Positions 16,777-63,358 of a stretch of 63,358 nt of DNA are shown in pieces (the stretch's first letter is position 1; each line of letters begins with the position of its first letter). The position numbers and the translations under genes were made by a program. Source of the DNA: Methanothrix sp. (lineage in GTDB: Archaea > Halobacteriota > Methanosarcinia > Methanotrichales > Methanotrichaceae). The stretch lies in the NCBI GenBank assembly GCA_029907715.1, contig JARYLI010000008.1:1-63358 (forward strand). Direction: 5' to 3'. The notes under the pieces were generated by a model. The model made no database searches and was not told the DNA's origin. It saw only the letters and a program-made list of their open reading frames with translations.

Positions 16777-16889
16777 AATGGTGATTTTGTTTATTTCATA
16801 AAGCTGAATGAAGAATACATATCTATAAATGTTGATGCAAAATGATCACATGCAGCCCGGCCCAGCGAGGACTGACCGGTATCCACAAT

Positions 16890-17037
16890 CGCTCTTATTC
16901 ATCTTATGACTTCCCCCGAAGAAAATTCATGCTATGCGCCGGTTTCGACTTATCTTCGACTGCGTCGAAGGCCCGGCGAGGGGATGAGTGGATTCAGCAA
17001 CCGGACCGCATGACCCACAAGTTGCTGAACACAAGCG
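16890..17037 (+). mobile_element. Family A miniature inverted-repeat element, copy 1
   Basis: A 148-bp non-coding element starting CGCTCTTAT and ending in a worn AAGCG terminus. The 8-bp sequence TCCACAAT occurs immediately on both sides (16882-16889 and 17038-17045), the target duplication left by insertion. Inside are palindromes TTCGAC...GTCGAA and TTCAGCAAC...GTTGCTGAA shared with the other copies. It fills the gap between the Cys-protein promoter and the methyltransferase gene. Confidence 0.85.
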
Positions 17038-17127
17038 TCCACAATAATTGCATCAGCGATCGCGGGCTCGCATCCCTTAATCCAAAGGCATGCTAACGTA
17101 ATCGCAACGTGCCCGCGATCAGCGATC

Positions 17128-20834: not shown

Positions 20835-20844
20835 CATCCAATTC

Positions 20845-21033
20845 CATTTGTCATCGGTTAAGGATTTTCTGAAAATATATTGACCATGGAATTTGACAAA
20901 TTGAGATCTCCCCATAGTGGAGAGTTTGATTCAAATCGACCGCTTGTGGGCTTGAGTCCTGATAGCAGTACTGAGGCGAGATAAGACCATTAAGTCCAAT
21001 TCTACACATGTCGATCTTAACCGATGACGCATG
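20845..21033 (+). mobile_element. Family B 189-bp inverted-repeat element, copy 1
   Basis: The termini are CATTTGTCATCGGTTAAG and, inverted, CATGCGTCATCGGTTAAG. The 10-bp sequence CATCCAATTC flanks the element exactly on both sides (20835-20844 and 21034-21043), as expected for a target duplication. The same 189-bp element occurs at 46024-46212, roughly nine positions in ten identical. It has no gene, so it would need a transposase in trans; the ends resemble IS4-type termini ending in GTTAAGGAT. Confidence 0.9.
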
Positions 21034-21117: not shown

Positions 21118-21253
21118 AGCTCTTATTGATAAATTGCCTGTGAACCCCGCATGCGATGGTAAAGGCATCGGCTTTGGCATGCGCTTCTGTAGAACGAATG
21201 AGTGCTTCCAGCAGCCGGATTGCGCAACCTGCACCTGCCAAACAATGAGAGCG
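21118..21253 (+). mobile_element. Family A miniature inverted-repeat element, degenerate copy
   Basis: A 136-bp element beginning AGCTCTTAT and ending ATGAGAGCG, worn versions of the family A termini, with GAATGAGTGC inside as in other copies. AACAGATA (21110-21117) and AACAAATA (21254-21261) flank it, a 7-of-8 match. It lies just past the family B element, between PAN and ferredoxin. Confidence 0.65.
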
Positions 21254-28180: not shown

Positions 28181-28217
28181 AGCACACCTCTTTTCCTGTG
28201 CATGCGCATTCTGTTTA

Positions 28218-28370
28218 CACTCTTATCCATCTGATGACCTGCCCGAAGAGGCAGCAGCCGTGCTATGCACTCGTTTCGACTTATCTTCGACTGCGTCGAA
28301 GGCCTTGCGAGGGGTGAGTGCATTCAGCAGACTCCCCCCATGCCTCCAAGTTGATGAATACATAAGAGCG
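28218..28370 (+). mobile_element. Family A miniature inverted-repeat element, copy 2
   Basis: A 153-bp element with CACTCTTAT and ATAAGAGCG termini, flanked by the exact 8-bp duplication TCTGTTTA (28210-28217 and 28371-28378). Internal TTCGAC...GTCGAA and TTCAGCA palindromes match the other copies. It lies between the start of hisC and the end of the downstream isomerase gene. Confidence 0.9.
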
Positions 28371-28460
28371 TCTGTTTATTGCTGATTCTGTTATCGCCAC
28401 AACAGATCGCGATCCGGCATTATGCGGTCCAACAGGCCTCGTATCATCAGGCCGGAGAAC

Positions 28461-30415: not shown

Positions 30416-30536
30416 AGCTCATCCATCTGATAACCTGCAGAAGAAACACTGGCCATCTATCCGTTCCTGGATGGTGAAAGGGTGCCTCAAGCAACCAGAT
30501 TGCATGCCCTCAGGCTGCTAAGCATATAAGAGCACG
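30416..30536 (+). mobile_element. Family A element, divergent subtype
   Basis: This copy begins AGCTCATCCATCTGATAAC and ends ATATAAGAGC, matching family A ends imperfectly. Its middle (GCAGAAGAAACACTGGCC, ATCTATCCG, CAGATTGCATGCCCTCAG) is shared with the copy at 39212-39317 rather than with the main type. Possible duplications AGTTCTCG and AGTTCTAT flank it (6 of 8). It abuts the stop codon of the transglutaminase-like gene. Confidence 0.55.
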
Positions 30537-34455: not shown

Positions 34456-34578
34456 CGCTCTTATCCATCTGATAACTTGCCCGAAGAGGCGCCACTCGTG
34501 CTATGCGCTCGTGGCGAGCGAATGAGTGGATTCAGCAACAAGCTTGCATGTCTTTCAAGCTGCTGAACACATAAGAGC
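34456..34578 (+). mobile_element. Family A miniature inverted-repeat element, copy 4
   Basis: A 123-bp element with perfect CGCTCTTAT and ATAAGAGCG ends. ATCGTCTC (34448-34455) and ATCGTCGC (34579-34586) flank it, a 7-of-8 duplication. It lacks the TTCGACTTATCTTCGAC hairpin seen in the longer copies but keeps TTCAGCAAC...GCTGCTGAA. Confidence 0.9.
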
Positions 34579-34631
34579 GATCGTCGCCTGTGCACTGATA
34601 GGTCGCTACCCATGATCTCCGACAGCATCCT

Positions 34632-39033: not shown

Positions 39034-39203
39034 CGCTCTTATCCATCTGATGACTTGTCCGCAGAGAGCAGTCACGCTATGCGCTCGTTTCGACTTATCT
39101 TCGACTGCGTCGAAGAGTTCGACGAATTCGAAGGCCCGGCGAGCGAATGAGTGCATTCAGCAACCTCCCGCATGACCTCCAAGTTGCTGAATACATAAGA
39201 GCG
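39034..39203 (+). mobile_element. Family A miniature inverted-repeat element, copy 5
   Basis: The longest copy, 170 bp, with perfect CGCTCTTAT and ATAAGAGCG ends. TCTTCTAT (39026-39033) and TCTTCGAT (39204-39211) flank it, 7 of 8 identical. It has an extra GAGTTCGACGAATTCGAAG insertion in the central hairpin, and the TTCAGCAAC...GTTGCTGAA palindrome. Confidence 0.9.
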
Positions 39204-39211
39204 TCTTCGAT

Positions 39212-39317
39212 TTCATCTGATCACTTGCAGAAGAAGCACTGGCCATCTATCCGCTCCTGGAGAGCGAACGGGTGCTTCCGGCCGCCAGATTGCATGCCCT
39301 CAGCTGCTGAGCACATG
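39212..39317 (+). mobile_element. Family A divergent-subtype copy interrupted by copy 5
   Basis: Directly after copy 5 lies CATCTGATCACTTGCAG..., and the segment ends GAGCACATGATGGCG, a worn family A end. Its middle matches the divergent copy at 30416 (GAAGCACTGGCC, ATCTATCCG, CAGATTGCATGCCCTCAG). Only its left terminus is missing, consistent with copy 5 having inserted at that terminus. Confidence 0.55.
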
Positions 39318-39487
39318 ATGGCGAATACCTCTCCAGAAGCCATTTCAGTGGTATGATCCAGAGAGGGGGCATTAACTCATCCAGCCCCATAACCAGAATC
39401 CTCGTTTGAGCCATCCGCATCCAGCCACGCAAAGGATTTTATCTGGGTCTGTGGCTACTTCAGGCAGTATCAATCTGAGGAGAGAAG

Positions 39488-46015: not shown

Positions 46016-46023
46016 GTCTGCCC

Positions 46024-46212
46024 CATTGCTCATCGGTTAAGGATTTTATGTAAATATATTGACCACGAAATTTGACAAATTGAGACCGTGCCAGATTGGC
46101 GAGTTTGGTTCAAATCGACCGCCTGTGGACTTGAGTCCTGATAGCAGTACTGAGGCGAGATAAGACTATTAAGTCCAATTCTACACATGTCGATCTTAAC
46201 CGATGACGCATG
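46024..46212 (+). mobile_element. Family B 189-bp inverted-repeat element, copy 2
   Basis: Identical in length to the copy at 20845-21033. The left end is CATTGCTCATCGGTTAAG and the right end is CTTAACCGATGACGCATG. The 10-bp AAGTCTGCCC occurs exactly on both sides (46014-46023 and 46213-46222). The insertion begins nine bases after the mtnA stop, and the duplication starts just after that stop. Confidence 0.92.
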
Positions 46213-52377: not shown

Positions 52378-52519
52378 CGCTCTTATGTATTCAGCAACCA
52401 GAAGGATGCAAGACGGTTGCTGAACGCAATCATTCGTTCGCCAGGCCTTCGACGAAGTCGAAACGAGTGCATGGCAGGACCGGTGACCCTGCGGACAAGT
52501 TACCAGATGGATAAGAGCG
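52378..52519 (-). mobile_element. Family A miniature inverted-repeat element, copy 6
   Basis: A 142-bp copy in the opposite orientation, with perfect CGCTCTTAT and ATAAGAGCG ends and the GTTGCTGAA and CGACGAAGTCG palindromes. TTCGGTGA (52370-52377) and TCCAGTGA (52520-52527) flank it (6 of 8), suggesting an older insertion. It lies between lhr and the tRNA genes. Confidence 0.85.
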
Positions 52520-62007: not shown

Positions 62008-62045
62008 CTGCCGGGTGGTGTGGAGATGAGAGGAGTATCGTTAAT

Positions 62046-62170
62046 CGCTCTTATGTATTCAGCAACTTGAAGGACATGCAGGCCGGTTGCTGAATGCACT
62101 CATACCCTCGGAAGGAACGCATAGCGTGACTGGTGCCTCTTTGGGCCGAGTTATCAGATGGATAAGACCG
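62046..62170 (-). mobile_element. Family A miniature inverted-repeat element, copy 7
   Basis: A 125-bp reverse-orientation copy, with CGCTCTTAT at the left and ATAAGACCG at the right. TCGTTAAT (62038-62045) and TCGCTAAT (62171-62178) flank it, 7 of 8 identical. It sits about 40 bases upstream of the trpB TATA box. Confidence 0.9.
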
Positions 62171-62257
62171 TCGCTAATAAGTGCATCCAAGCGTCCCACT
62201 GTGATCGATGCAAACGCGGCGCTGTACAGGGGCAGTAAATCCTTCCCGGACGGACGT

Positions 62258-62536
62258 TCATCTATCAGCCAGGCGAAGCTTATTATTATATTTTAAATAT
62301 AAAGCAATTCCACACAAAAAGCTTGCCAGCGACACTGCATTTGATACTATGAGGATCGTGTTATTCAGGTATATGCCGTAGAGGAGCCAGAGAAAGATAC
62401 CTGTGGTGTACTGAAGAAGCATCGGGAGGCTCAGATCTCCGACAAGCTTGGTCCTGTACATCTTGATGATCTGGGGGTAAAATCCGAACATCGTGAGGGA
62501 TCCCGCTGCGATGCCGACCAGATCCCATGACTCCAT
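62258..62536 (-). CDS. SemiSWEET/PQ-loop membrane protein
   Basis: A 92-residue protein with three membrane segments and the PQ motif (FYPQIIKMYRTK), then LQYTTGIFLWLLYGI and a third helix. That is the size and arrangement of a SemiSWEET half-transporter, which works as a dimer to move sugars or small solutes. The substrate is unknown. It lies 15 bases after the secreted protein gene, probably in one transcript. Confidence 0.8.
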   Translation of the reverse strand: MESWDLVGIAAGSLTMFGFYPQIIKMYRTKLVGDLSLPMLLQYTTGIFLWLLYGIYLNNTILIVSNAVSLASFLCGIALYLKYNNKLRLADR

Positions 62537-62551
62537 CGAACCAGCCTCTAA

Positions 62552-62902
62552 TCAGAATGGAGGGATCCAGCTGCTTTCGTTGTACGCCATCGTGTATAGA
62601 CTGTCTGATGTGCTTCCCAGCCAGTCGGTGCCGATCTGTGTTTGAGTCGAGTTTGTATCCCTCACGAGCACGCCATTGACAAGCCTCCATCCTCTTGGCA
62701 CCCCACCCCAGCTCCAGAGGTCGTTGCTGAGGGTCACATTCCTTGTTGTGTTTATGTTGCTCATCAGCCATGCCCTTCCAAAATCCCCGCTGACACTCTG
62801 GAATCTATCCCCTGAGCTCACATTTCCCTGGTTCTCTGCCAAGGCGCACTGGAGCGACAGAATAAGAAGCAGTGCAGCCGCAACTCTCTTGCCTGCATTC
62901 AT
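62552..62902 (-). CDS. Small secreted protein of unknown function
   Basis: A 116-residue protein with a signal peptide (VAAALLLILSLQCALA) and a Trp- and Asn-rich mature part with several N-glycosylation sequons (NVS, NTT, NVT, NST, NES). No cysteines remain after the likely cleavage. A minus-strand TATA (TTTTTATATATC at about 62956-62967) lies upstream. I do not recognise it. Co-transcription with the SemiSWEET gene is likely. Confidence 0.65.
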   Translation of the reverse strand: MNAGKRVAAALLLILSLQCALAENQGNVSSGDRFQSVSGDFGRAWLMSNINTTRNVTLSNDLWSWGGVPRGWRLVNGVLVRDTNSTQTQIGTDWLGSTSDSLYTMAYNESSWIPPF

Positions 62903-63015
62903 GTGCCTGAGGAGGTAATATGTGGGATAAAAGGATGTTGGCAGAGATGCGAATGATATATAAAAAGATGTTTTTTTAAGTGTGAACAGGATGTGCTCTG
63001 TTGAATAATTGAGGT

Positions 63016-63139
63016 CGCTCTTATGCGTTAAACAACTTGTGGGTCATGCTTGGAGGTTGCTGAACGCAATCATTCCCCCGGAAGGAGGGCAGAGCAGGAG
63101 CGGTGTCTCTTTGGGCAGGTCATCAGATGGACAAGAGCG
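63016..63139 (-). mobile_element. Family A miniature inverted-repeat element, copy 8
   Basis: A 124-bp copy with CGCTCTTAT and ACAAGAGCG ends, flanked by the exact 8-bp duplication ATTGAGGT (63008-63015 and 63140-63147). Together with the copy at 28218 it defines the element's ends best. Confidence 0.93.
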
Positions 63140-63329
63140 ATTGAGGTATATAAAATCGAATGCCATCGATTTTTACTGCAACTACAATTTGTATGAATTG
63201 GCCCTATGATATCGGATTCTCGAACATTATTCGACACAGCAATAGGATAAAATAGTTTGAGGCGATATTTTTGCACACAGTTGCTGTGTTGGATAACTAT
63301 TTAAACTAGGAAAATATATAATATATTTC

Positions 63330-63358
63330 ATGGCCTATGAGGATAACCGCAATTGGCG
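63330..63358 (+). CDS. Start of a gene cut by the window end
   Basis: ATG at 63330 opens a frame (MAYEDNRNW...) running off the window. An AT-rich AAAATATATAATATATT tract lies directly before it, centred about 10-20 bases upstream, so the exact promoter element is unclear. Too short to assign. Confidence 0.4.

Follow-up and report, generated by a model that had tools for sequence, protein, structure and literature searches.

A short noncoding sequence recurs between the genes of the window, a stretch of 63,358 nucleotides from Methanothrix sp. (contig JARYLI010000008.1). This sequence, here called family A, raises the question of whether it is a mobile element and, if so, what moves it, or whether it is a conserved structured RNA. 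We addressed the question by examining the ends, flanks, orthologous sites, and folding of family A copies in the home genome and related genomes and by searching for a transposase with matching ends.

Family A copies in the window

The home genome (G000) is of the Methanothrix type and comprises 2.0 Mb in 55 contigs, of which the window is contig C8. Among the genomes compared, G005 (JAKPCO01) was its closest relative, and G004 (Methanothrix sp. SKW87), G003 (LCB019-064), G001, and G002 (a single contig of 1,879,471 bp) belong to the same genus. All eight copies listed in the original prediction, as well as two divergent ones (30416 and 39212), were located in the window where they had been placed. 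The copies are as follows, with flank matches given out of 8 bp.

16890 to 17037, plus strand: family A, 148 bp, extended type; 8/8 duplication TCCACAAT at 16882-16889 and 17038-17045
21118 to 21253, plus strand: divergent family A copy, 136 bp; flanks AACAGATA/AACAAATA, 7/8; same site occupied in G005 (99%)
28218 to 28370, plus strand: family A, 153 bp; 8/8 flanks TCTGTTTA at 28210-28217 and 28371-28378; site empty in G005 and G003
30416 to 30534, plus strand: old divergent family A copy; 86% identity to the 39208 copy over 90 nt; no 8-bp flank match at the model ends
34456 to 34579, plus strand: family A, canonical 124 bp, subfamily S1 type; flanks ATCGTCTC/ATCGTCGC, 7/8; G005 orthologous site without a copy
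39034 to 39203, plus strand: family A, 170 bp; flanks TCTTCTAT/TCTTCGAT, 7/8; 98% identity to a nonorthologous G002 copy at 1323510-1323680
39208 to 39323, plus strand: old divergent family A copy (the predicted copy at 39212), adjoining the 39034 copy; no target duplication at the model ends
52378 to 52519, minus strand: family A, 142 bp; flanks 6/8; G005 orthologous site without a copy
62046 to 62170, minus strand: family A, 125 bp; flanks TCGTTAAT/TCGCTAAT, 7/8; truncated copy at the G005 orthologous site
63016 to 63139, minus strand: family A, 124 bp; 8/8 flanks ATTGAGGT at 63008-63015 and 63140-63147; same site occupied in G005 (98%)

The exact 8-bp repeats reported at 16882/17038, 28210/28371, and 63008/63140 were confirmed. 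The flanks of the remaining listed copies agreed at 6 or 7 of 8 positions, as had been described, with 7/8 for 34456, 39034, 62046, and 21118 and 6/8 for 52378. No coding ORF was seen in any copy, again in line with the original prediction. The density of about one element per 6 kb held locally but not elsewhere, since 20 model matches were found in a 400-kb sample (1 per 20 kb); the 285 ends counted in the home genome imply about 1 copy per 11 to 14 kb genome-wide. The modal length of family A was 123 to 125 bp, with longer copies of 150 to 175 bp and a maximum of about 200 bp unless other elements were nested within. Inside the longer copies lay a palindromic TTCGAC...GTCGAA repeat that varied in length (window 16950-16975, 28281-28304, and 39096-39136) and made up most of their size excess over the 124-bp form.

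Ends, copy number, and host range

Aligned copies had CGCTCTTAT...ATAAGAGCG ends in common. When left and right ends were compared across subfamilies, the terminal inverted repeat (TIR) proved to be bipartite and 24 bp long at both ends, with CGCTCTTAT followed by NN RT, NNNNN, and RACTTG. The terminal repeat is thus longer than had first been noticed, and its ends occur far more often than by chance. A left-end pattern of 20 specified bases, searched with up to 3 mismatches, was matched 188 times in the home genome, and the right end was matched 164 times; the reversed patterns, which served as controls, gave 0 matches in both cases. The 24-base bipartite pattern CGCTCTTATNNRTNNNNNRACTTG, searched with up to 1 mismatch, occurred 285 times in the home genome, 221 times in G005, 85 times in G004, 82 times in G002, 22 times in G001, and 3 times in G003, and its reversed form had 0 matches in every genome searched. 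We estimate that the home genome contains roughly 140 to 200 copies.

Of the 44 other family genomes, 43 had no match to the same pattern and one had a single match. A covariance-model search of related genomes was likewise positive in 6/6 genus genomes and in 0/35 others. Family A is thus restricted to the genus, being present in all 6 genus genomes and almost entirely absent from the rest of the family. Plasmid and phage collections contained no family A match. Matches in a Zetaproteobacteria sequence (L238) and in viral sequences (L280-L283) were rejected as chance, as they were single ends inside unrelated sequence. One copy was found on a contig binned as Atribacteria (L232, JAAYUT010000010.1), which is probably a mis-binned Methanothrix contig.

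Target duplications and target sites

Flank statistics were obtained from 154 unique home-genome copies, many of them picked as strong matches, and from an unselected set of 29 copies from the window and the 400-kb sample, which carries more weight. For the 154 copies, the chance level was determined by pairing the left flanks of copies with the right flanks of other copies. Flank matches among the 154 copies were bimodal, with 52 at 8/8, 17 at 7/8, 8 at 6/8, and the rest chance-like, while a match of at least 7/8 is expected by chance in 0.15% of such mismatched pairs. In the unselected set, 12 of 29 copies matched at 6/8 or better versus 1% by chance, and exact flanking repeats were found solely at length 8, never at lengths of 4 to 7 or 9 to 12. 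End pairs with flanks of at least 7/8 numbered 62 to 72 per DNA sample versus 0 in the reversed-motif control. These results show that the flanks of the sampled copies are far better than chance.

The 99 distinct perfect duplications revealed a symmetric, A/T-rich target of the form WW-WNNNNNNW-WW. Positions -2, -1, +1, and +2 outside the duplication were 89 to 97% A/T, and the first and last duplicated bases were 83 to 84% A/T. A dimeric transposase would be expected to leave such symmetry. Counting against our best explanation, 26 of 94 home-genome copies with near-perfect ends had flank matches of 5/8 or less and no recognizable target duplication, and a test for recombination based on swapped flanks yielded no convincing reciprocal pair of copies to account for them.

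Evidence of insertion

Empty sites, by which the original prediction proposed to check for mobility, exist in sister species. Neither of the outcomes that it named as refuting (no empty alleles, or flanks no better than chance) was seen in the loci and copies examined. At 28218, the orthologous sequences of G005 and G003 aligned straight across with a single target, CTGTTTA, which is a clean empty allele. The copies at 34456 and 52378 were missing at the G005 orthologous sites. The sites of 63016 and 21118 were occupied in G005 with 98 to 99% identity, and a truncated copy was present there at 62046. Because some window copies are empty or absent in G005 and others are common to both genomes, the copies differ in age.

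Nested insertions were also found. The copy at C5:69486 interrupts another repeat within a further family A copy and is flanked by the exact duplication TTGGACTT, and an insertion of the same sort lies at C10:36479 with the exact duplication TTTAGCTC. One other repeat family was hit by five sampled family A insertions. In addition, one copy was inserted in the transposase gene of an IS256-like element (C6:113287-114490), with the duplication TAAGGGTA.

Two further dispersed repeats were observed. A MITE-like repeat of about 190 nt with ends CCATTGGTCATCGGTTAAG/CTTAACCGATGACGCATGG occupies window positions 20844-21033 and 46023-46212 (91% identical); elsewhere it was found within family A copies, and it itself receives at least 5 family A insertions. 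Another of about 110 bp, TATAGTATTCCGCATAAGTTGC...GACGCAAAGGACTATA, was seen inside or near family A copies (stretches L042, L120, and L033).

Subfamilies and genomic setting

Clustering of 198 copies of 115 to 130 bp separated subfamilies that were each dominated by one species: S1 by the home genome (44/50), S2 by G005 (30/39), S3 by G004 (23/23), and S4 by the home genome (16/21). The median nearest-neighbor identity was 96% for both the home genome and G004 and 94% for G005. The 39034 copy was 98% identical to a G002 copy at another locus, while aligned regions of the two genomes were about 84 to 91% identical. This likeness of the sequences would fit recent shared mobility, possibly across species.

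Several features of the genomic setting were recorded. Synteny breaks at the family A loci 16890 and 39034-39323: only about 60 to 190 bp at most separate the left flank of 16890 from the right flank of 39212 in G001, G003, G004, and G002, and the 22 kb that intervene in the window sit elsewhere. In G002 (1639500-1657500), family A copies occur at an exact spacing of 6,885 bp, three times, and a neighboring transposase fragment shares this period; the spacing is that of a multiplied 6.9-kb segment. About eight or nine copies are tightly packed into less than 2 kb in G005 (stretch L194, 5998-7892).

Mobile element or structured RNA

None of 28 copies from the window and the sample lay in ORFs of at least 150 aa, compared with 78% of random 124-mers. 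Such strictly intergenic placement of the sampled copies would also be expected if family A were a conserved structured RNA or a regulatory repeat with a host function (ERIC-, REP-, or riboswitch-like) that is not mobile. In keeping with this, three of the seven copies tested folded better than shuffles (z of about -2.3 to -4.1, with the others near zero to -1.6), and the central 5-bp palindrome kept its pairing with some compensatory change (covariation of 0.37 versus 0.28 when shuffled; 0/500). However, RNAalifold applied to 29 diverse copies returned the terminal-repeat pairing and two short stems alone, with a covariation term of 0.11 kcal; the 3' stem showed no two-sided changes, the subfamilies differed from one another in fold, and Rfam held no match to family A. 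The palindromes that had been predicted to be conserved were thus borne out for the terminal repeats and the one short central palindrome but not for the others, and the proposed compact multi-stem RNA found no consensus support, with covariation about zero and folds that vary by subfamily. Flanking genes were arranged in a tandem:divergent:convergent ratio of 13:6:6, and therefore family A has no fixed tie to terminators or promoters. The precise 8-bp duplications and empty sites demonstrate insertion. A structured RNA is largely refuted as the primary explanation, and an immobile host-functional repeat is to be regarded as highly improbable; the central palindrome may matter at the DNA rather than the RNA level.

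In contrast, the reading of family A as a transposable element, as first suggested, is backed by the duplications, the empty sites, the nesting, the insertion in the IS256-like gene, and the lineage-specific bursts of subfamilies. Family A is short (less than about 500 bp) and noncoding and has TIRs, a fixed 8-bp duplication, and evidence of insertion, which are among the defining features of a MITE. We therefore consider, with a probability of about 95%, that family A is a MITE, a DNA transposon that is non-autonomous and is moved in trans, most likely by a DDE-type transposase, with species-specific bursts followed by decay.

Search for the transposase

That a transposase elsewhere in the genome mobilizes these elements, as the original prediction held, is reasonable, but no transposase among those examined had matching ends. 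A partner with a matching TIR was absent among elements of the five transposase families searched (PF01609, PF01610, PF12762, PF00872, and PF13610). A scan for bipartite ends with a target duplication in about 1.7 Mb of sampled sequence, overlaps included, gave 143 elements, none longer than 455 bp, and hence no full-length IS with family A ends. Those elements of more than 210 bp whose full sequence was inspected were family A copies with nested insertions and not steps toward an IS. Among them were three of the 396- to 455-bp elements considered as intermediates (on C5, C10, and C4), which contained other inserted repeats. The region C12:3592-4866 was rejected as an autonomous copy, as its DDE_Tnp_1 gene belongs to a separate IS5-like element that has ends of its own, AGGATTCCTAT, and has inserted into a family A copy. 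A 3,319-bp end pair (stretch L198) was also rejected, having ordinary genes and no transposase between its ends.

Individual IS elements were also rejected as partners. The flanks of the transposase gene in the IS256-like element on C6 hold GCAGTGTGCCGAAATTGCTGTAA and its inverse rather than family A ends. The IS6/IS240-like element of G004 and G005 ends in GGGGACCTGTCCGAATAA, and the IS1634-like element of G002 (534 aa), whose position next to a family A copy is coincidental, ends in ATCCCACATTCCGCAT; like the IS5-like element on C12, it is a DDE_Tnp_1 element. The home genome has one IS1595-like fragment, which lacks family-A-like ends.

Two IS families have features in common with family A. 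One is an IS5/ISH1-like IS of 988 bp with the TIR TGCTGTGTTGGATAA, 8-bp duplications, and 9 copies in G002; a copy begins at window 63283-63358, where the contig stops inside the IS. Its duplication length equals that of family A, it occurs in the same genomes, and it was recently active. Nevertheless, it is very unlikely that family A is a MITE of this IS: the TGCTGTGTTGGATAA ends are unlike CGCTCTTATNNRT...RACTTG, and G001 and G004 carry family A, abundantly in G004, yet have no DDE_Tnp_1 match. The other is the ISL3 family, whose ends start GGCTCT-like and which duplicates 8 bp. Derivation from an ISL3-type IS since lost from the genus would explain the core GCTCT in the family A end and its duplication length. 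Other genera within the family do have ISL3 transposases, and one ISL3 element, in G019, ends GGCTCC...GGAGCC. They are found, however, in 0/6 family A-carrying genus genomes, and the terminal base of family A is C rather than G, with the remaining TIR also mismatched, which makes an ISL3 origin improbable, although less so than the IS5/ISH1-like one. Because no matching ends were found in the searched families and no long element was detected, the partner of the MITE either has been lost, lies in an assembly gap or elsewhere than in the DNA sampled, or belongs to a family beyond the five searched.

Proposed mechanism and significance

A DDE-type transposase supplied in trans would most likely recognize the bipartite 24-bp TIRs, with the outer CGCTCTTAT block cleaved and the inner RACTTG block bound. 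The ends would be joined to the two target strands with a stagger of 8 bp, at intergenic sites flanked by A/T, and the 8-bp duplications would result. In recent bursts, each species has multiplied one or more subfamilies of its own, and the copies have afterward decayed in place. A more speculative proposal, which we think unlikely though somewhat less so than an ISL3 origin, is that the six Methanothrix species share an unrecognized transposase, possibly host-resident without TIRs of its own or of an undescribed IS family. Its action would have caused repeated bursts, specific to each species, that brought one MITE family to about 1% of the genome with no autonomous copy surviving.

Family A is a large MITE family that spans an important methanogen genus and has been active recently; the literature searched held no account of a MITE from this genus. 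The missing transposase can be sought precisely by the combination of bipartite ends, 8-bp duplication, and A/T-flanked target. The presence or absence of copies can provide strain and species markers, and their pattern contributes to an account of how the intergenic DNA of Methanothrix genomes was built.

Comparison with known elements

Family A differs from the Correia elements of Neisseria, which duplicate TA, in its 8-bp duplication and its TIR. Both Correia and the ERIC elements of enterobacteria resemble it in being 120 to 200 bp long, high in copy number, and intergenic (PMC10969869); Correia exceeds 120 copies in N. gonorrhoeae, and ERIC has 30 to 711 copies per genome. The SM2 and SM3 MITEs of Sulfolobus are, like family A, archaeal, non-autonomous, and multicopy; they reach 25 to 44 copies in a host unrelated to Methanothrix (PMC10969869). 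The same 2024 review includes no Methanothrix or Methanosaeta MITE among the archaeal examples given, and no description of family A was found in the literature searched, which covered few subscription journals.

Kamoun et al. (2013; PMC3852290) catalogue archaeal MITE families, including 19 "MITE-like" structures without an autonomous partner. As far as the accessible portion of that catalogue describes them, these archaeal MITEs are, like family A, short and noncoding with inverted ends and sometimes direct repeats, orphans are known among them, and similarity to the partner is often confined to the TIR. None of those in its tables as available is from Methanothrix or Methanosaeta, and they have 5 to 34 copies each, compared with roughly 140 to 200 for family A in the home genome. 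One of the entries is the MITE of ISHwa6 (IS1595 family) in H. walsbyi, with 165 bp, an IR of 25, and a DR of 8, which comes near family A in size, TIR length, and duplication length and which has just 7 copies (PMC3852290). Altogether, family A is of a known kind, the MITE, and is a new, unusually abundant orphan family of that kind.
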